Shown here one piece after another: positions 42,007-63,503 of a stretch of DNA of 64,000 bases. The position numbers and the translations under genes were made by a program. The stretch comes from Proteiniborus sp. MB09-C3 (GTDB taxonomy: Bacteria > Bacillota > Clostridia > Tissierellales > Proteiniboraceae). How positions within the stretch are numbered: position 1 is the stretch's first letter; each line of letters opens with the position of its first letter. Below the pieces are notes generated by a model. That model had not been told where the DNA came from and did not search any database. It was given only the letters and a program-made list of their open reading frames with translations. Where the stretch lies: contig NZ_CP127161.1 in NCBI RefSeq assembly GCF_030263895.1, positions 1,984,001 through 2,048,000 on the forward strand. Direction: 5' to 3'.

Positions 42007-42576
42007 ATGGATCTGCTAAAGAAGAAAATATTAGAAGAAGGCAGTGTTGAAGAAGGCAATATTTTAAAAGTCGATAGCTTTTTAAATCATCAATTAGACA
42101 TTGCTTTTTTAAATGAAGCTGGAAAAGAGTTTAAAAGACTTTTTGCTGATAGAAAAATCACAAAAATACTCACTCTTGAAACATCAGGAATAGCCATAGC
42201 AAGCATAGCAGCACAATATTTTAATGTACCAGTAGTATTTGCAAAAAAAATTGCAACAAAGAATCTTGATAGGGAAACTTATGAAAGTGATGTTTTTTCT
42301 TATACTAAGGGTAGGACATATAAGATTAAGGTATCAAAAAAATATATAAATAAGGACGATCATATCCTTATTATTGATGATTTCTTAGCAAATGCGCAGG
42401 CAGCATTAGGACTTATGGATATTATTAATAAAGGTGGAGCTACTCTAGAGGGTATAGGAATAGTTATAGAAAAAGGCTTTCAGGATGGAGGACAGCTTTT
42501 AAGAGAACAGGGTGTTAATTTAAAATCCCTAGTTATAATAGACTCATTTGAAAATGGTAAAGTAAAATTTAGATAA
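42007..42576 (+). CDS. xpt: Xanthine phosphoribosyltransferase
   Basis: 189 aa, normal for Xpt. It salvages xanthine to XMP using PRPP. N-terminal MDLLKKKILEEG and KVDSFLNHQLD are Xpt-specific; TLETSGIAIA and the PRPP loop HILIIDDFLANAQA (about 118-131) are present. RBS AAGGAGG. No purine riboswitch is visible in the 200-bp leader, unlike B. subtilis xpt. Followed directly by a terminator. Confidence 0.95.
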   Translation: MDLLKKKILEEGSVEEGNILKVDSFLNHQLDIAFLNEAGKEFKRLFADRKITKILTLETSGIAIASIAAQYFNVPVVFAKKIATKNLDRETYESDVFSYTKGRTYKIKVSKKYINKDDHILIIDDFLANAQAALGLMDIINKGGATLEGIGIVIEKGFQDGGQLLREQGVNLKSLVIIDSFENGKVKFR

Positions 42577-42782: not shown

Positions 42783-43562
42783 ATGATATTTTATTGGGAA
42801 AAAATTTTGATACCATATGAACAAGCTGTAGAGGAGCTTAAGGTCAAATTTAAAGGTATAAGAAATGAATATAGAAGACTTGATGAATATTCTCCTATTG
42901 AATTTGTTACTGGTAGAGTAAAGGCTATTTCTAGTATCTTAGATAAGGCCAGACGAAGAAATGTACCCCTAGAAAGAGTTGAAGAAGAGATTGAGGATAT
43001 TGCTGGGATACGTATCATGTGTCAGCTAGTAGATGACATTGAAAAGGTTGTTGAGCTTATAAGGAGCAGAGATGGCAAGGATTTAAGAATTGTAGAGGAA
43101 AGAGATTACATAACTAATATTAAAGAAAGTGGATATAGAAGCTATCACATTATCATTAAATATAAAGTTCATACTGTTTTTGGTGAGAAGGAAATATTAG
43201 CAGAAATACAAATAAGAACATTGGCTATGAACTTTTGGGCTACTATTGAACATTCCCTAAATTATAAGTTTTCTAGAAATATACCAGAGGATGTAAAGGA
43301 ACGGCTTAAAAATGCAGCCGAGGCAGCATTTTTACTTGATCAAGAGATGTCTGAAATTAAAGATGAGATTACTGATGCTCAAGAAATTTTTCAGCTAAAA
43401 TCATCATTGATTGTCGATATATTGAAAAAGATTCAAAACCTTTATTTTACTGGAAAGATTAAGGAAATAGAGGGTATTCAAGAAAGATTCCTTGTGCTTC
43501 AGGAGCATGGAAGTGTAGCTGAACTGAGAAGGTTTAGCAAAGAACTAGATGAGATGCTCTAA
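42783..43562 (+). CDS. Small alarmone synthetase (RelA/SpoT synthetase domain, RelQ/YjbM-like)
   Basis: 259 aa. A single RelA_SpoT nucleotidyltransferase domain: FVTGRVKAISSILDKARRR, DIAGIRIMCQLVDDI, ESGYRSYHIIIKY and ILAEIQIRTLAMNFWATIEHSLNYKF. There is no HD hydrolase, TGS or ACT domain. It makes (p)ppGpp from ATP and GTP or GDP. It is about 45 residues longer at the C terminus than B. subtilis YjbM (SasB), with a helical extension after the conserved domain. Own promoter. Confidence 0.92.
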   Translation: MIFYWEKILIPYEQAVEELKVKFKGIRNEYRRLDEYSPIEFVTGRVKAISSILDKARRRNVPLERVEEEIEDIAGIRIMCQLVDDIEKVVELIRSRDGKDLRIVEERDYITNIKESGYRSYHIIIKYKVHTVFGEKEILAEIQIRTLAMNFWATIEHSLNYKFSRNIPEDVKERLKNAAEAAFLLDQEMSEIKDEITDAQEIFQLKSSLIVDILKKIQNLYFTGKIKEIEGIQERFLVLQEHGSVAELRRFSKELDEML

Positions 43563-44119: not shown

Positions 44120-45178
44120 TTAGCCGTTTTTATTTTTAATAGTATATATTATATTCATAGCAAAATCCTTAGCGTATTCTTCAATATTGGGCAGCTTTAT
44201 AATAGAGCCTTTATCATTTGCAGTAGCCATCAGGGAAAAATAAGGTGGAAGTCTGAAGGTTTTATTTATATTTAATGCGCTGATCAGCTGTTTTGCAACT
44301 GAATCGCTGCCAGAGTTTCCTGATACTATAATACTAAAAATACTTTTATCGTAAAACTTAGTTTTTCTGAAAAGAGCTGTTAATCGATTGATTACAGCAG
44401 AAAGATTTGCAGAGATAGCATCGTTATAATTAGGACAAATCCAGATTATAATATCTGAATGCAGTATAGAGGGATACACCTCTTCTACCATAATTCCTCC
44501 GTAAAAACAGCTAGTTTGCTGTCCATAGTGCTTGCAAACCTTATATGGACATCCGATACAATCCTTTACTGTACCATTTTCTATATGTATTTCATTGATA
44601 GGATAGTCCACTAAATGTTTTTTTACCATATCCCAAAGCATTAAGGTATTTGACGTTTTTCTATTACTTGCATGAAGAACTAATATCTTTGGATTTTCCA
44701 AAGGTATAGGCTTATAATCATTTAATCTCATGCTGAGGGCCTTGCAGCTTTCAATGCATACATCAATAAGTGGCTTTTTAGATACCTTCTGTACAGTTAA
44801 AAAATTTCTTAATGATCCTGTTGCCTCTACTAAAGGTCTTCCAAGAAAACTGAGACCCATTTGATTAGATAAAAAAATAATGTCTTGAGCGACTGTTTTA
44901 GTGTATAATTCGGTGTCACTATGTATTAATATACTTCCCGTGGAGTCATGTAATGCTTGCTTCCCTTTATTGAATATTTCAGTAAGTATTTTATCTAGTC
45001 CTAGGCTTATTCCAGCACCATTAAGCTCTACAGCAAAAACAATTTTCTTGCTTCTTAAATCAGGAATATTGTGTTCATCTTCAATTATGATTGGATTCCA
45101 GTCTGCACTTACTGCATTAATCATTTTATCAAGTATATCTGAAGGCTTTTCAGGAACTATTATATAGAGGTCCTTCAT
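44120..45178 (-). CDS. NADPH-dependent FMN reductase-like flavoprotein with extra N-terminal domain
   Basis: 352 aa. Residues about 165-345 resemble the FMN_red/iron-sulfur flavoprotein fold (ILVLHASNRKTSNTLMLWDMV phosphate loop, DCIGCPYKVCKHYG with Cys spaced CxxCxxxC, IIWICPNYNDAISANLSAVINR). The N-terminal 160 residues are unfamiliar. The start overlaps the stop of the preceding LDH-like gene (ATGA), so the pair is translationally coupled. Third gene of the operon led by the 1627-aa protein. It probably transfers electrons from NAD(P)H, target unknown. Confidence 0.65.
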   Translation of the reverse strand: MKDLYIIVPEKPSDILDKMINAVSADWNPIIIEDEHNIPDLRSKKIVFAVELNGAGISLGLDKILTEIFNKGKQALHDSTGSILIHSDTELYTKTVAQDIIFLSNQMGLSFLGRPLVEATGSLRNFLTVQKVSKKPLIDVCIESCKALSMRLNDYKPIPLENPKILVLHASNRKTSNTLMLWDMVKKHLVDYPINEIHIENGTVKDCIGCPYKVCKHYGQQTSCFYGGIMVEEVYPSILHSDIIIWICPNYNDAISANLSAVINRLTALFRKTKFYDKSIFSIIVSGNSGSDSVAKQLISALNINKTFRLPPYFSLMATANDKGSIIKLPNIEEYAKDFAMNIIYTIKNKNG

Positions 45179-46416
45179 ATGGTTGCCAACCTTTCAAAGG
45201 TTTCTTCCAATTTCTTATACAATGTTACATGAAGATTTAGACGTTCAAGCTCTGTACCTGAAGGAGTTAGTCTATTTTTGGCTCCCATATAGACACCGCC
45301 CATAAAGGTAGCACTATAGTGCCAATTGCCTTTTATAGTATTTAGAATTGATAGTGCACCAGAGGATAGGGCAGGTGCTACAAAAGGCTTATATCCAGCT
45401 TCTCTAACCTCTAAATTTGCATATAGTGTTTTTTTAGTTAGATAATTTGATAGCTCTTCATCATAATTTTCTATACTATTAGCTATAACTAATCCTTGAC
45501 CATGAGGTCCAAAGGCTCTCCCTTCGGTGATATAAGATGCTGTCATTGGATTTTTAGAAGCATAATACGCTGCTCTTGCATTCATAACACCAAGCCCATA
45601 TCCTCTTATTTGCTCTGGTGCAAGTCCACCATAATCCATAATTCCTTGTGAATTTTTATTGCTTTCTATAAGAGCTGCTTTACATAGCAAATCTACAGGA
45701 TCAGAGACTACAGCAAATATTCCCTTAAAATTATTTTTTCTTGCCATAATAGCATATTTTTTAATAATTTCTGAATTTCCCTCAAACTGATAAAGCCTTA
45801 CATCTCCAACATCTTCTCCTATCTTAGGTACATTTTTTGAAGCACAAAATACAAACATGTCACAGCTAAATAATTCTTCTTCTGAGATTCCTTTAATTAG
45901 AGGGTATTCATTGCAATTGAAAGCATCTAATATCTGGTTTGCCTCTAGTTCCCATCTAATTACAGATTCTGCTGATCTTGAATATATGCCAATTTCAGAT
46001 ATACAGCTTCCTCCTAGAAGACGAAGTCCGGTTAAAAGAGTTCCGCCTACGTCGCCAAGTCCTACGAGGTTCACCTTCCACTTAGAAGGTGGGATATAAT
46101 ACAATACACTTCTCCAATTCTGATAGCTTGTATTTATAGCCATGATCTCTCTAGAGCTAATTTTATAAAGTAACCAGTCCTTTAAATTATAATTCCCTTC
46201 ATCAGGCTTTACTAACAATCTTAAATCTTCATTTTTTAGGTATAACAGCGAAGAATCAGAAACAGAGAAGCTTCTTCTTGAAGAATTAGGCACTAAAGCT
46301 GTGAGAAAAAATATTAATCCTCTTTCTTTAGCGGCTTCGCTTTCATGAATTTCATTAAGCTCATCATATTTATTATAAGAAAATGCGATTTTGTTTCCTA
46401 TTTTATAAAAAAACAT
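45175..46416 (-). CDS. Lactate/malate dehydrogenase-like NAD-binding protein
   Basis: 413 aa, longer than LDH (about 315) because of an N-terminal domain of about 115 residues. From about 115 it has a Rossmann fold (WKVNLVGLGDVGGTLLTGLRLLGG), then VVSDPVDLLCKAAL, GYGLGVMNARAAYYA (aligned with the GTVLDSAR motif of LDH) and FGPHGQGLVIANS (aligned with the catalytic GEHGDS). The His is kept, but the Asp of the catalytic dyad appears replaced. It may be a non-canonical 2-hydroxyacid or sugar-acid dehydrogenase. Thirty bases after the large gene; GGAGAGG RBS. Confidence 0.65.
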   Translation of the reverse strand: MFFYKIGNKIAFSYNKYDELNEIHESEAAKERGLIFFLTALVPNSSRRSFSVSDSSLLYLKNEDLRLLVKPDEGNYNLKDWLLYKISSREIMAINTSYQNWRSVLYYIPPSKWKVNLVGLGDVGGTLLTGLRLLGGSCISEIGIYSRSAESVIRWELEANQILDAFNCNEYPLIKGISEEELFSCDMFVFCASKNVPKIGEDVGDVRLYQFEGNSEIIKKYAIMARKNNFKGIFAVVSDPVDLLCKAALIESNKNSQGIMDYGGLAPEQIRGYGLGVMNARAAYYASKNPMTASYITEGRAFGPHGQGLVIANSIENYDEELSNYLTKKTLYANLEVREAGYKPFVAPALSSGALSILNTIKGNWHYSATFMGGVYMGAKNRLTPSGTELERLNLHVTLYKKLEETFERLATI

Positions 46417-46446: not shown

Positions 46447-49400
46447 TTATCTGACTATATTTCTAATTCTATTCAATCTCTCAATATCGTTCTTAAGGTA
46501 TTCCGAAGGCTTGAGATTCAGGTCATATTCTATGTTTCTTCCTAATTCAGGACATCTAGGATAAGTGAATACTTCACCTAAATGCTTAAGAGTAAAATTT
46601 CTTTCCTCAGCTAATAAATACTCTCTTTCAATAGTTTGAAGTATGTCTATAGAATTTAATATGCATATTTCTGATAAATTGATAATAGCCTCTCCAGTTG
46701 TATTTTTTATGAACTTAGGATACATGTAAGGCATTATTAAGTTGATTGATGGAATCATATACCTTTTAGGCTGATCTCCTGTCCATACCGAATCCCCTCC
46801 CATAAAAGGATAAAGCAAGCTTTCATTAAACCACACCCTTAAATTAGGGATAAAATATGCAGAATCGACCTGATTTCCATGAGCATCCATCAATTCTTTT
46901 CCTCTTCCAGAAAGTATACCTACTATTGTTTTTTCTACAGTTATACCTTCTTGATTAAGAAGTGGACTAATTGCGTTCATTCTATAGCCTTTATGAAGCA
47001 AGTCGTCAATTAATATTACAGGTCTATTAAAGGAGTGTAATAGTTTAATTTGATTCTCCAAATTCATATAGTATTGAGAAGGAACAATGGTTGAGCTTTT
47101 TAAGTCTGATTCAAATCTTTTTTCAGTATGCATTGACTTAGTAACAGTATTAGGTATTATAGAGCCTTTTAATATGGAGCCAAAGGGTACACACATAAAG
47201 CCTCCAAGAGTTCTGGGCTCCATTACTTGGGTAGGCACAACATTGGTTTCACATATCTTGTTAATTAATTTTTTATGCAAAATATCTATATCAAATGGCA
47301 AGACCAAATTGCCTGGATATAATCTTGTCAATGCCAATTGGAGTCTTTTTCTTGCTCTATTTATTGAGCCTATAACATTTTCGTTACTTTTGAATGGCTC
47401 CTTAATCACTGTTTTGATATCAAGGCTCAAAGTACATGGATTAGTCATATTCACTGCATAAATAGGATTTTTTTCATCACTAAATGGTATCAGCTGAAAG
47501 CCTTGGAGCTCAAGGGTTTCATATATATCAGGCTGTAAATAAGTATCTATAGAGCTCTTAAAAACTGCATAGGTATAATCCTTAGCTAGACAAAATGAGA
47601 GAGTTTCTGTAAGCAGGACTTGATTTAGATTACTAAATCGGGAGGAATGGTCAATATATATTCCATCTACTAATAAAACTCTTCCTACAGCATTCTGCCT
47701 TATATATTCAGATACATTTTGGTTTTCAAATTCACCGTAGAACATACCTGACCTAATCCAGTGGAACATGGAGAAACCAAGTATTTTTCTGTCATCATCC
47801 TTATCTCTAAGTAATATTATACGAGGACTGAATTTTGTTTTTAAGTTGAATATTCTCTCATAGGCCTTCTCATTATTATTAAAAAATAATTGGCACAGAC
47901 TAGAAATCAAGGTTTCATCTATTTTTTCAATTACTTCAATATCTATAGAGGTAGTTTGAAATAAAGTCTTATATTGAGGTTCTTTTCTATATACTCCATA
48001 TTCATAAATATATTTTTGAGCTAATGGGTCTATTAGCTGGGATATATCCCTATTTTCATCTATATAGGTTCTAATTTGTGTTGAGCTTATATCCTCGTAC
48101 TGGGGAGGTAGAGTAAGTCTTATGATTTTTCCGCTAATATTTTGTATTGCTTTTTCTAATTTCTTATCATCATGTTCAGTAGAAACAAAGCTCCTTCTAT
48201 CAAAGATAATATGAGGGAAGCTATGTATTGAACTTTCAGTTTCCTTATTTTTATAGCTTGAAGCATTAAGTATTACATCACTTCCAGCAACCATATGTAC
48301 ATTAGAGTTAGGGAAGCAATCCCTTAAGGCTTTCAAATCATAATCATTAGTAATATTGACTTGTATATCCTCGGGGAACAAATGTATCCCAAGCTCATCA
48401 GCTATGGACATATTTATTATTTCTCGCCTTAATAAGTTCGGCTGAGTTCTTTTTGACCAGGAAAACTCATCAACTGCTAAGTAAACTTCAAAGCCTAAAT
48501 TCCTTATTGCCTTTGCTATTTCCTTATGACCAAGAGAAAAAGGATCAAAGGTACCTGGGTAAAAGGCCACATTAGAATTATGACTGATGTCAAATTCTCC
48601 ATAGAAAAACACATAATCAGATATAAATCTATAGATATGATTTAATGCAGCTGAATTACTTAAAAAAGTAAGCTTATCTCTGTCGATTTTGACTAGCAAT
48701 GTGAGAATCTTTTTTAGAATAAGCTTAAATATGTCTCCTTTTTCTTTTAGTGAAAGCTCAGACGAGCCAAATATTTCTTTTCCTATAACTCTAAAGGCCT
48801 CGTGATTAATCTGATAATCATAATTTACCAGTCCATTTAATAATATTCCTAGCATTTTTTTCAGCCTTTGAATATTTCTATCTGTATCCTCATTAAATCT
48901 TTCTTTATATTGCGGGTAATTTGAAATAGTACTTCCTATGGTTCGGAGCAAAAGAAAAGTAACCTGTGAACTAGACTGTTTAATTTTTTCAATAAAATCA
49001 TCTATTATTTCATCCAGTTCCACAGGATGTAGGTAGAGCAGCATTCTCCCTAAATATGGTGGTATATACTTAGTAAATTGAAAGCCTTGCATTTCAAGGG
49101 CACGTAAAAGCTCAACACTTACATCATTTTTCTCATCTAGAGTAAGGTAAGGAAATAGGTGAAGCAATGCTAAACCAGCATGAGTTCTTACATTTTCAGT
49201 TGCACTTACCTTTATTAGATTACAGTAATGCATAGCAGTATGTAATCCGTTTTTTCTTGGGGATTCTATCCCTAGCTCAAGAAGAAAATCAATAGATGTT
49301 TTCTTTATTATCCAGCTTGTTGCTGTTTTTAGGTTTTTAAGAAATACATCGCCTATTTTCTCATAATCACCTAAGAAGTAGCTTTTAAACAAAGCTTTAG

Positions 49401-51330
49401 TATTTTCATCAAAGCTTAATACCTCAGATATCTTATATTTCAAATAATTTATTGCAGGAATATCAGGGTAACTAGCGTTATCTGATAGCTTAAGGATTAC
49501 TTCATTAAAATATTTTTTATCGATTTGAAAGGATAAGTAGTAAATGCTTTCTAAAGCAGAAAGCTCAATGTCTAAGTTATAGCTATCAGTCATTTTCCCG
49601 ATGAAGCTTAGTACCCTATCAAGCTCTAGATCATCAAATTTATTAAAGGGTATGCATTTGACAGTTTGTATTAAATAAAGTATGGCCTCCCATTCAAAGC
49701 TGTATGCAGCTTCATAGTATTTAAAGAGAACATTTATATAATCTTTTCCTTGTTCTTTATTGCAATGCTTAAATAGGGATGTTATCATATCTCCTAAGCT
49801 AAAACCAATCCATTTCCTATGGGCTTCAATTATTTTATGATCAGGAGATAGAAATAAGCCAATATACTTATCAAGAAGTTCACTACTAGTCACTTCTGGT
49901 GATGCTATATTTACATCATCGGGAACTTCTTTTCTATATACCTCATCAAATATGGCTATGAAGCTGCCAATTAGCTGTGCGCATTGTTTTCTAACATCTT
50001 CTTCCTTATGAGTTAAAAAATCATAAAGAAAGTTCAGGGTTATGAGTTTTTGTCTTTGAGTTAAGAAAGCTGAATATTCCTCGAAAATATTTATATATCC
50101 GCGAAGCTTCTTCCAATCAGTTTCTCCTGCAGCCATTTCTAAAATGGAATTCAAAGATGCTTCATTTCTAAATATATTCATGACATGAATGTTATGCTCA
50201 ATAGCTTTATATTTAATGTTTTCTATTATTTCCTGTCCTTGCATAAAAGAGATATGTCTTTTAACTTTATTAGGTTCTGCAACACTATTATCTAAATTAA
50301 CGTTTACTCCAGCGTTTGTAATAAAGTCTTCAAAGTCTTTGAGCTTAGAATATACTCGCCTATATCTTTTTTCCTTTTCTGAATCCACATTGTCTAGCTT
50401 ATTTAATATGATGTTAAAGGATTCTCTTAGCGAATAAATGTGCATTATTCTACTGCCATCAGGGAGTTCTTTATTTTTTACTCTAAAGTCTGAATATATT
50501 AGAACAAGAGATTCTATCGGCAGGTTTTCTAGCTCTAAATCCCAAGTAGAATGGTAAGTGGCAATGTGACCGATATAGGGGATATCATGCTTCTTATACC
50601 ATAAATCCGTATAATAATAATGCAGATATGGAACTCTTTTATACTCACTTCGGCTGCAACCATACTTACCTATATCATGGCCGGCAGCTGCACCAGACAA
50701 TTTACCTAGATCAATTGGAAGCCCATAATTCTTAATTTGTCTTCCTATAAATAATGATAAATGATGAACTCCACAAACGTGATCAAGAGTATTATGGTTA
50801 GTTATTTCCTGATGAAGCTTCATCATTTCATAAGCATAACTATTGTTAAATATATTTTTAAATTGTCTATATTCAGCTAAGCTTGCGGAGCTCTTCTCTT
50901 CCTCAGCATTGAGAAAGTTTAAAGGATATTTACTTTGACAAGTACTAGTATTTATATTTTTTTCAAATTCAGATAATACTCTAAGAGCTTTCAGATAAAA
51001 GATTATAGCAGCACTGTATTTTGATTCTGTATTTATGTCAATTGCATTAGGAAATGATTTATTAAGGGTAAATTGATAGACATAGTATAGCCAATTGTCG
51101 GGGAGTTCAGTACCACATACTTGTTTAAGTAAATTTTTACAAAGGCTATAAACTGCCTTACAGCTAAAGTCTTTTTCATCTGTCATTTCATTAACTTTAT
51201 TTATAAATGAAGCCTCCGATATATTTTCCCTGATAATTTTTATATCTAATGAAAGTTCATTTATAAAACTTTCATTCATTAAGGAATGTATCAATTTGTT
51301 ATGTATCTTTTGTGACAATGAACTATTCAT
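46447..51330 (-). CDS. 1627-aa multidomain protein: HD, helical repeats, NadD-like nucleotidyltransferase, GNAT-like, PRTase-like
   Basis: ATG at 51330 with AGGAGG. Domain order read from motifs: HD metal-phosphohydrolase region about 180-265 (H184, HHxxLF at 189, HDIGK at 218-222, HxxxYH around 254-260), similar in style to YqeK. HEAT/ARM-like helical repeats at about 360-900. NadD/cytidylyltransferase-like domain about 920-1115 with YPGTFDPFSLGHKEIAK (TxGH-type motif ends at H935) and ISSTQIR at 1081-1087. GNAT-like region about 1130-1290 (VGRVLLVDGIYIDHSSR). PRTase-like region about 1330-1560 with VILIDDLLHKGYR at 1438-1450. I know no characterised protein with this order. In most bacteria NadD and YqeK are separate adjacent genes, so a nucleotide or NAD-linked role is a reasonable guess, not more. 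Confidence 0.8.
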   Translation of the reverse strand: MNSSLSQKIHNKLIHSLMNESFINELSLDIKIIRENISEASFINKVNEMTDEKDFSCKAVYSLCKNLLKQVCGTELPDNWLYYVYQFTLNKSFPNAIDINTESKYSAAIIFYLKALRVLSEFEKNINTSTCQSKYPLNFLNAEEEKSSASLAEYRQFKNIFNNSYAYEMMKLHQEITNHNTLDHVCGVHHLSLFIGRQIKNYGLPIDLGKLSGAAAGHDIGKYGCSRSEYKRVPYLHYYYTDLWYKKHDIPYIGHIATYHSTWDLELENLPIESLVLIYSDFRVKNKELPDGSRIMHIYSLRESFNIILNKLDNVDSEKEKRYRRVYSKLKDFEDFITNAGVNVNLDNSVAEPNKVKRHISFMQGQEIIENIKYKAIEHNIHVMNIFRNEASLNSILEMAAGETDWKKLRGYINIFEEYSAFLTQRQKLITLNFLYDFLTHKEEDVRKQCAQLIGSFIAIFDEVYRKEVPDDVNIASPEVTSSELLDKYIGLFLSPDHKIIEAHRKWIGFSLGDMITSLFKHCNKEQGKDYINVLFKYYEAAYSFEWEAILYLIQTVKCIPFNKFDDLELDRVLSFIGKMTDSYNLDIELSALESIYYLSFQIDKKYFNEVILKLSDNASYPDIPAINYLKYKISEVLSFDENTKALFKSYFLGDYEKIGDVFLKNLKTATSWIIKKTSIDFLLELGIESPRKNGLHTAMHYCNLIKVSATENVRTHAGLALLHLFPYLTLDEKNDVSVELLRALEMQGFQFTKYIPPYLGRMLLYLHPVELDEIIDDFIEKIKQSSSQVTFLLLRTIGSTISNYPQYKERFNEDTDRNIQRLKKMLGILLNGLVNYDYQINHEAFRVIGKEIFGSSELSLKEKGDIFKLILKKILTLLVKIDRDKLTFLSNSAALNHIYRFISDYVFFYGEFDISHNSNVAFYPGTFDPFSLGHKEIAKAIRNLGFEVYLAVDEFSWSKRTQPNLLRREIINMSIADELGIHLFPEDIQVNITNDYDLKALRDCFPNSNVHMVAGSDVILNASSYKNKETESSIHSFPHIIFDRRSFVSTEHDDKKLEKAIQNISGKIIRLTLPPQYEDISSTQIRTYIDENRDISQLIDPLAQKYIYEYGVYRKEPQYKTLFQTTSIDIEVIEKIDETLISSLCQLFFNNNEKAYERIFNLKTKFSPRIILLRDKDDDRKILGFSMFHWIRSGMFYGEFENQNVSEYIRQNAVGRVLLVDGIYIDHSSRFSNLNQVLLTETLSFCLAKDYTYAVFKSSIDTYLQPDIYETLELQGFQLIPFSDEKNPIYAVNMTNPCTLSLDIKTVIKEPFKSNENVIGSINRARKRLQLALTRLYPGNLVLPFDIDILHKKLINKICETNVVPTQVMEPRTLGGFMCVPFGSILKGSIIPNTVTKSMHTEKRFESDLKSSTIVPSQYYMNLENQIKLLHSFNRPVILIDDLLHKGYRMNAISPLLNQEGITVEKTIVGILSGRGKELMDAHGNQVDSAYFIPNLRVWFNESLLYPFMGGDSVWTGDQPKRYMIPSINLIMPYMYPKFIKNTTGEAIINLSEICILNSIDILQTIEREYLLAEERNFTLKHLGEVFTYPRCPELGRNIEYDLNLKPSEYLKNDIERLNRIRNIVR

Positions 51331-51578
51331 AAGAATCCTCCTGTAGAGTGTAAAATCGATGTATACTTTTTCTTTATTTTACCATTCTATATTATTATAG
51401 TAAAGAAATCCTTAGATAAAAGGTTTCAATCTATTACTGACATATATGTACAGACGTATTTTTATCTTCATTGTATAGAAATCATTATTTATGTTACATA
51501 TTACCCTTAAAATCATATTTTCAGTACTCATTTTTGATTTGATTTTCTTCTAATGATATTTATTTTATTATACATAAA

Positions 51579-62591: not shown

Positions 62592-63410
62592 CTATATAAA
62601 TCTATCTCTAACCTTAGACCAGAAGTTTTGGCTATGAAAGGTGAGTTTTCTTAATGTCATATCAGAAAGCTTGATTATAATCTCTACCACATTATCATAT
62701 TTTAGTTGATTTCCATCTACTACAATTAGGACAGTATTCTCATCCCTGTACTCAGGGTTGATTTTTATAGCCATTCCATCAGGTATGATTGCACTATTTT
62801 GTAAAGACCTATAAGCTTTTGAGTTTATTGGACAAAGGGGAGTCAACTGTAAAGTTTTTAGTGTGGGATAAACTATACTACCTCCTGCTGAAAGATTATA
62901 GGCAGTACTTCCACTGGGAGTAGATATTATTAATCCATCTCCACTAAAGCATTCTAAGTGATCATCATCTATTGAAACATTTAGATGTATGACTTTTGAT
63001 TCTATACCTTTTATAACTATTTCATTGACGCCTATAAGCTCAATACAGCTAGTTCTTGTACATACGATAGCTTCAACAAGATAAATATCTTCTATATTAT
63101 ATTTTCCCTTAGAATAATTCTCAACAAATTTATTGATATTCTCAGGGGTTATTTCATGGAAGAAACCTAAATGGCCTGTATTAACTCCAACAAAGGGCAT
63201 ATATGGGAAATTGTACTTATGAACAGCCCTTAAAAAAGCTCCATCTCCACCAATACATATACTTAACTCTGCATTATAGTCGAATTCACTTGAAATAATA
63301 TAACCATATTGTTTTAATTTGTTTTCTAAAAGCTCAGAAGTTTCTTTAGAACGTATATTATCATTATGAATAATGTTTATTATTTTTTTTCCTTGCAGTC
63401 CATTTTCCAA
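62592..63410 (-). CDS. nadK: NAD kinase
   Basis: 272 aa from TTG 63410, chosen because GGAGGG lies about seven bases upstream; a TTG at 63431 precedes that site. It phosphorylates NAD to NADP. Motifs: ICIGGDGAFLRAVH (catalytic GGDG), VGVNTGHLGFF, VNEIVIKG and STPSGSTAYNLSAGG. It stands divergent to an RluA gene rather than in the xseA/recN cluster frequent in Clostridia. Confidence 0.95.
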   Translation of the reverse strand: MENGLQGKKIINIIHNDNIRSKETSELLENKLKQYGYIISSEFDYNAELSICIGGDGAFLRAVHKYNFPYMPFVGVNTGHLGFFHEITPENINKFVENYSKGKYNIEDIYLVEAIVCTRTSCIELIGVNEIVIKGIESKVIHLNVSIDDDHLECFSGDGLIISTPSGSTAYNLSAGGSIVYPTLKTLQLTPLCPINSKAYRSLQNSAIIPDGMAIKINPEYRDENTVLIVVDGNQLKYDNVVEIIIKLSDMTLRKLTFHSQNFWSKVRDRFI

Positions 63411-63503
63411 AGTAGCTCCCTCCAAATTCAATTTGCAAAAATAGCAGGAATAGTATATGTATATTATACACTAATTGTATTAAATATAAAACGGAGGAAA
63501 AAC

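Follow-up and report, generated by a model that had tools for sequence, protein, structure and literature searches.

The window, by which we mean the whole stretch of 64,000 nucleotides that was analysed, contains an operon of three genes on its minus strand. The first gene (46447..51330), referred to as the giant gene, comprises 1,627 codons with an ATG start, and the ribosome-binding site AGGAGG (51337..51342) is located 6 bases upstream of this start. The second gene (45175..46416) encodes a protein of 413 aa, identified by family match, alignment and adjacency, in which an N-terminal region of about 110 residues is followed by a Rossmann dehydrogenase of the lactate/malate dehydrogenase (LDH/MDH) type. 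The third gene (44120..45178) encodes a protein of 352 aa and was assigned by family match, alignment and co-occurrence; here an N-terminal region of about 160 residues precedes a flavodoxin-fold domain of the FMN_red family. Genes 2 and 3 overlap by 4 bases in the window. The giant frame had been noticed previously in a sequence-only reading, which left its strand unstated and overlooked the operon. The list of open reading frames and the full-length homologues demonstrated that this frame is real and complete with 1,627 aa, and the motifs quoted in that reading are located at the quoted residues: HDIGK at 218-222, YPGTFDPFSLGH at 924-935, ISSTQIR at 1081-1087 and VILIDDLLHKG at 1438-1448.

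Of 60 genomes from the same order, 40 contain a homologue of the giant protein free of internal stops, in most cases as one frame. The full-length homologues have a size of about 1,570-1,640 aa and are 31-78% identical. Contig ends interrupted the gene in only four genomes, either by splitting it over contigs (G007 and G021) or by cutting it at the contig end (G020 and G059). The giant frame is neither a chance reading frame nor a contig artefact. Outside its own order the distribution within the phylum is patchy: the gene was found in 8 of 21 genomes of one further order, and among 398 sampled genomes from the phylum there were 8 carriers, 6 of these outside the order. A scan of genome contigs with exact patterns revealed only two giant loci. 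The carriers include Acetoanaerobium noterae (Filifactoraceae, Peptostreptococcales), which belongs to a genus of amino-acid fermenters. A phage origin was rejected, as there was no phage match and the matches in viral contigs were short NadD-like stretches. A plasmid origin was rejected as well; the sole match in a plasmid collection was a 2.6-Mb Acetoanaerobium record. The 2.63-Mb A. noterae record NZ_CP154629.1 (locus L182) is classed as a plasmid and has just 4 features annotated, but it contains housekeeping genes and looks like the chromosome. Assignment to a defence system was dismissed because PADLOC gave no match. The curated libraries that we searched do not name a function for the giant, and searches of an open literature library found no paper on its architecture.

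For analysis of the domain structure, alignments of both halves of the giant were built from 41 genomes, and the structure of each half was predicted with a pLDDT of 88.6 and 89.4, respectively. Five modules are supported, namely a helical N-terminus, an HD domain, a HEAT solenoid, a NadD-fold domain and a phosphoribosyltransferase (PRTase)-like domain, together with a weak GNAT-like segment. All of them are encoded on the minus strand. According to the predicted model, residues 1-138 (50917..51330) form an all-helical region, which is poorly conserved (0 of 138 columns at >=97% conservation). At the opposite end of the protein, the model and the alignment delimit a C-terminal tail (residues 1501-1627, 46450..46830) with the conserved motif YPFxGGD.

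The HD domain comprises residues 139-345 (50296..50916). The HD domain that had been recognized from the HDIGK motif is supported by Pfam, which identified HD in 22 of the 41 members (best value 6.4e-7), and by the invariance of the six ligands H184, H218, D219, H237, H260 and D281 in all 43 homologues. The pattern H...HD...H...H...D formed by these residues marks a dinuclear HD site (PMC8177086). HD phosphohydrolases commonly have an Arg at the third position ahead of the first His (PMC8177086), whereas the giant contains T181 there; Thr is found in 34 of 43 homologues and Arg is not among the four commonest residues. In profile comparisons the domain matched HD-GYP domains from the same genomes with an E-value of 9.5e-6 and YqeK with 3.7e-4, both values being single comparisons that are to be weighed against unrelated families run as controls. 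The YqeK model of NCBIfam (TIGR00488) did not match the giant at E-values up to 1. The GYP motif is absent after the HHE segment of the giant, where the sequence reads DLELENL. Judged by these profiles, the HD domain of the giant is closer to HD-GYP domains than to YqeK.

The approximately 550 residues of helical repeats noted between HD and transferase proved to be a solenoid of the HEAT/ARM type (residues 346-910, 48601..50295). This assignment is based on Pfam HEAT matches in 26 of 41 members, the AF2 model of this half (pLDDT 88.6), and matches to HEAT/ARM proteins obtained with both Foldseek and VIA.

Residues 919-1118 (47977..48576) constitute a nucleotidyltransferase domain with the motifs PGTFDPFxxxH935, SWSK960, GSDV (1016-1019), Y1026 and SSTxIR (1082-1087). 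The proposed NadD type holds for the fold, and NadD is also the closest family. Superposition of residues 919-1115 with NadD from M. tuberculosis using VIA resulted in a Z score of 19.6 with 2.5 A over 187 residues, the Foldseek E-value was 1e-9, Pfam matched 41 of 41 members and the profile-profile comparison yielded 1.4e-16. The residues H935, S1082, S1083, I1086 and R1087 are present in 43 of 43 homologues. Two positions deviate from NadD: the first His of the HxGH motif is Ser or Thr in the giant, and a motif alignment with real NadD places the invariant Tyr1026 at the position of the stacking Trp, which in NadD lies against the pyridine ring. In addition, the giant did not reach the equivalog cut-offs for NadD in NCBIfam (41.9 versus 150 bits and 41.4 versus 112 bits). 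Around nadD or yqeK of some relatives we also observed open frames of 396, 380 and 323 codons (G030:C7:44935-45495, G058:C1:1989312-1989890 and G022:C1:650855-651364). These frames suggest NadD-YqeK fusions, which would be an independent instance of the two domains being joined.

The structure searches were performed with the whole C-terminal half, and the matches listed were exclusively of the NadD/CoaD type, with none separately for the GNAT or the PRTase part. The acetyltransferase-like segment of the sequence-only reading (residues 1122-1300, 47431..47967) is weakly supported, by its topology and a weak profile match to one GNAT protein. The predicted model shows the order b-a-a-b-b-(2 helices)-b-a-b-a-b, which corresponds to the GNAT order with two extra helices. 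An acetyl-CoA pyrophosphate loop (Q/RxxGxG/A) is not conserved in this segment, and a PDB profile search with it gave chance matches only. With 5 of 179 columns at >=97% it is the least conserved folded module, and we consider it probably structural and non-catalytic.

The PRTase-like domain (residues 1303-1500, 46831..47424) was delimited by Pfam, profiles and conservation. It contains the motif NTxTKxxHTE (1394-1403) and the phosphate loop VILIDDLLHKGYR (1438-1450). The resemblance to a PRPP loop that had been pointed out extends to the module as a whole, which is PRTase-like at the sequence level. Pfam matched 12 of 41 members, and among the family controls the PRTase set was the best match (7e-5). 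Like the E-values for the HD domain, this value and the profile-profile value of the NadD-fold domain come from single comparisons and are to be weighed against the unrelated control families. By profile the domain is of the hypoxanthine/adenine kind (type I), the top PDB profile match was a hypoxanthine PRTase (E 0.18), and the order of secondary structure elements in the predicted model fits a type I PRTase. The substitution of Lys-Gly for Thr-Gly was described correctly and is conserved (K1447 in 37 and G1448 in 42 of 43 homologues). In the loop DDLLHKGYR, R1450 is found in 42 of 43 homologues where Thr is usual; thus a TGxT phosphate loop is absent and most of the 43 homologues possess KGxR. 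Since the loop lacks TGxT, this module may not react.

The residues whose conservation the sequence-only reading had wanted checked are conserved: H184, H218, D219 and H935 occur in 43 of 43 homologues, D1442 and D1443 in 42 of 43. Three features are kept in the alignments: the HD metal site, the active-site motifs of the NadD-fold module, and the acidic pair in the PRTase-like one. The strict maintenance of the HD metal site and of the NadD-fold active site, while the GNAT-like part and the N-terminus drift, favours catalysis over mere binding.

At nearly every locus with enough flanking sequence the LDH-like gene comes next after the giant gene, in the same orientation and no more than about 100 bases away, and the flavoprotein gene comes after that. 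The LDH-like gene was found at position +1 in 38 loci and the flavoprotein gene at position +2 in 33. The single clear exception is locus L058/L078 (genome G383), where a giant of 1,622 aa is followed by an unrelated frame of 330 aa on the other strand. The flavoprotein gene was present in 39 of the 40 giant-bearing genomes of the order and in 0 of the 20 genomes without the giant (Fisher 5e-15, ignoring relatedness). In the single carrier without it, the giant ends at a contig edge. The pairwise distances of the three proteins correlate with r of about 0.91, as expected for co-inherited genes. These data show that the giant heads an ancient and conserved, obligately linked three-gene system together with an LDH-like dehydrogenase and a four-cysteine flavoprotein. 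The fixed order, the co-occurrence and the correlated distances argue that the two redox proteins are part of the function of the giant.

Within the LDH-like protein, Ldh_1_N was detected in 39 of 39 members, with the copy in the window below the cut-off (23.1 versus 27). R207, N214, R281 and H305 are invariant, and R281, the carboxylate Arg, and H305, the catalytic His, were found in 42 of 42 sequences. According to a motif alignment, the position of the catalytic Asp of LDH (D168) is occupied by M278 in 42 of 42. Because of this Met, ordinary 2-hydroxyacid dehydrogenation by the gene 2 product is not assured. For Rossmann dehydrogenases it is an established rule that NAD(H) is bound where strand 2 ends in an acidic residue; such a residue is present in 34 of 42 sequences, which suggests that the gene 2 product binds NAD(H). 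The gene 3 product exceeds the FMN_red cut-off (73.1 versus 24 bits; 35 of 35 members), contains the invariant cysteines C207, C210, C215 and C224, and has no sequence match in the PDB. No family match was obtained for the N-terminal regions of gene 2 (residues 1-110) and gene 3 (residues 1-160), which could be docking domains for the giant. A distant carrier possesses an LDH-like gene of just 328 aa (L083:6926-7912) in which the additional N-terminal region is largely missing; this region of the LDH-like protein may therefore be dispensable.

Beyond the three operon genes there is no fixed neighbour, and the neighbours differ between families; the following counts are not independent, since the loci share ancestry. 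In 12 loci (including L020:14398-15036) a short paralogue of polyprenyl diphosphate synthase (UppS), about 213 aa long, is encoded upstream of the giant in the same orientation. Another 11-locus set (L020, L022, L023, L032, L037, L039, L040, L043 and L049-L051) has genes of iron-sulfur L-serine dehydratase (sdaB, sdaA) upstream of the giant and on its strand; in 8 of these loci they overlap or abut it. A flavin amine oxidase of about 550-576 aa is encoded on the same strand in 8 loci, either upstream (including L020, L022, L026, L027 and L053) or downstream (including L021 and L024), and an indolepyruvate oxidoreductase lies near the operon in one family. In the window, a NAD kinase gene (62592-63431, minus strand) is located upstream of the giant. 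The same arrangement, on the same strand and at a distance of 2-11 kb, was detected in 7 further loci from several families (L027, L039, L042, L044, L045, L057 and L182). Just downstream of the operon and on the opposite, plus strand, the window contains genes for a xanthine phosphoribosyltransferase (42007-42576) and an adjacent small alarmone synthetase of the RelQ/YjbM type (42783-43562); 14 loci have a RelQ gene close to the operon. A search for a riboswitch or leader upstream of the giant revealed nothing credible and no NAD-type riboswitch.

The canonical enzymes of NAD metabolism were found in addition to the giant. NadD is encoded in 60 of 60 genomes of the order, YqeK in 26 of 26 genomes searched, and a nicotinate or quinolinate PRTase (nadC or pncB type) in 38 of 40 giant-bearing genomes. 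A nadC gene is rarer in giant carriers (10 of 40) than in genomes without the giant (13 of 20; p 0.004, ignoring relatedness). Several carriers without nadC contain a short nicotinate PRTase-like gene (about 350 aa) that is below the family cut-off, for example at G000:C1:2124411-2125244. Replacement of the NadD, NadC or PncB of the genome by the giant was rejected in general due to the presence of the canonical genes; the weak negative link with nadC remains. The earlier suggestion of an elaborated YqeK-NadD device for NAD is only partly supported: the module assignments largely hold, but the canonical genes and the closer relationship of the HD domain to HD-GYP speak against it.

In our tentative interpretation, which we regard as possible, the giant is an active multienzyme and would serve as a hub where an adenylylated nucleotide is made and broken down; the two redox partners would use or modify this nucleotide. 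The NadD-fold domain would transfer AMP from ATP onto a phosphorylated acceptor by means of H935, K960 and SSTxIR. The invariant Tyr1026, which takes the place of the ring-stacking Trp of NadD, makes it probable that this acceptor is a mononucleotide carrying an aromatic ring. The PRTase-like domain may supply or bind a ribose-phosphate partner, and its more basic KGxR loop may suit a substrate other than PRPP. The dinuclear HD domain would hydrolyse the product or an intermediate, and synthesis and turnover would thus be combined on one chain. The HEAT solenoid would act as a spacer between the sites and may also be where the two redox proteins dock to form a complex. These proteins would use or reduce the resulting nucleotide, and the GNAT-like part would probably be structural. 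Since the canonical NAD enzymes are also present, the product would be one additional to NAD. In favour of the hub are the invariant catalytic residues of the HD and NMNAT domains, the agreement with NadD in fold and motifs, the tight coupling to the two redox genes, the suggested NAD(H) binding by gene 2, the occurrence of canonical nadD, yqeK and nadC/pncB independently of the giant, and the NAD kinase gene upstream in the window and in 7 loci. A more far-reaching proposal, of which we are rather doubtful, has the three genes producing and consuming a redox cofactor or signal of the nucleotide type other than NAD. The PRTase-like and NadD-fold domains would assemble it, the HD domain would degrade it, HEAT would be the scaffold and the redox partners would be dedicated to it, in what would be a previously unknown pathway of amino-acid-fermenting anaerobes. 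Several observations argue against the hub: the distance to the NadD cut-offs, the missing TGxT, the Met in gene 2, the neighbours from amino-acid catabolism and the lack of a NAD-type riboswitch.

The main rival, in our view unlikely, is a redox or nucleotide sensor-scaffold. Here the domains would bind NAD metabolites, ATP or phosphoribosyl compounds, and the HEAT repeats would relay this state to the redox partners and steer amino-acid fermentation, with minor or no catalysis. The degenerate PRTase loop and GNAT-like segment, the long solenoid, the strict coupling to two redox proteins and the amino-acid-catabolism neighbours in several families are consistent with such a role. It does not readily account for the six HD ligands and NMNAT catalytic motifs, which do not vary among 43 sequences with identities as low as about 31%, a degree of conservation beyond what binding alone should require. 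Improbable in our opinion is an accessory NAD salvage function, with the giant as a second NaMN/NMN adenylyltransferase carrying a phosphoribosyl-handling domain and the redox genes as NAD users. NadD is indeed the closest fold and family, nadC is rarer in carriers and NAD kinase is nearby in some loci, but every genome already contains a canonical NadD and nearly all a nicotinate or quinolinate PRTase. Moreover, the PRTase-like domain is of type I by profile and not a nicotinate PRTase, and the nicotinate-stacking Trp is Tyr in the giant.

We would also give little credit to a direct role in amino-acid fermentation, in which the LDH-like protein and the flavoprotein act on a 2-oxo or 2-hydroxy acid derived from an amino acid, and this acid is activated or carried by the giant in the form of an adenylate or a nucleotide conjugate. 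The serine dehydratase, flavin amine oxidase and indolepyruvate oxidoreductase genes and the presence of the operon in an Acetoanaerobium point in this direction. On the other hand, the neighbours vary by family with only three genes fixed, fermenters are rich in such genes anyway, and the neighbour counts come without a background rate. A sporulation or spore-cofactor function appears most improbable: SpoIVA is present in 27 of 40 giant carriers and missing from 13, with a Fisher p of 1.0, and this distribution refutes sporulation as a general role.

Apart from the assembly lines known for polyketides, peptides and fatty acids, conserved multienzymes of 1,600 residues are rare in bacteria. 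The giant, which keeps two nucleotide sites that are apparently active by their motifs and, at nearly every locus with a readable flank, is accompanied by the same two redox genes, would mark a self-contained biochemical function. If its product is a new adenylylated cofactor or messenger, gut and sludge anaerobes would have one more pathway than is known today. Targets for single-residue mutants are given by the motifs H184/H218-D219/H260/D281, H935/SSTxIR and DD...KGxR.

A comparison with known systems shows likenesses for several parts of the operon. YqeK, an HD-domain Ap4A hydrolase often encoded beside nadD, shares the six-residue dinuclear ligand set but differs by the Thr181 exchange at the Arg position and a weaker profile match than HD-GYP, and it is also encoded separately in these genomes. 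HD-GYP phosphodiesterases provide the best profile match and share HDIGKxG and the aligned HxxWD, whereas the giant contains HSTWDLELENL where the GYP motif is expected. NadD has the fold, GTFDP...H, Lys960 and SSTxIR in common with the giant, in which the first His of HxGH and the stacking Trp are replaced, the score is far below the NadD cut-offs, and the domain resides within a chain of 1,627 residues. NadR and other NMNAT fusions likewise join an NMNAT domain to other nucleotide domains; NadR consists of NMNAT, kinase and DNA-binding domain without HD, HEAT or PRTase. The type I PRTases (HPRT/APRT group) resemble the giant in the acidic pair, the order of strands and helices and the weak Pfam and PDB profile matches, and differ by TGxT in place of KGxR; NTxTKxxHTE and YPFxGGD of the giant are not covered by the matched family models. 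L-lactate/malate dehydrogenases share the Rossmann domain, the carboxylate Arg281 and the catalytic His305 with the gene 2 product, which differs by Met278 at the Asp position and by its extra N-terminal region. FMN_red and iron-sulfur flavoproteins share the FMN_red domain and a compact cysteine cluster with the gene 3 product, which differs by its additional N-terminal region of about 160 residues. Taken together, all parts of the giant are known folds; what is new is the NMNAT-containing fusion that they form, which belongs to a hitherto undescribed system of three genes.
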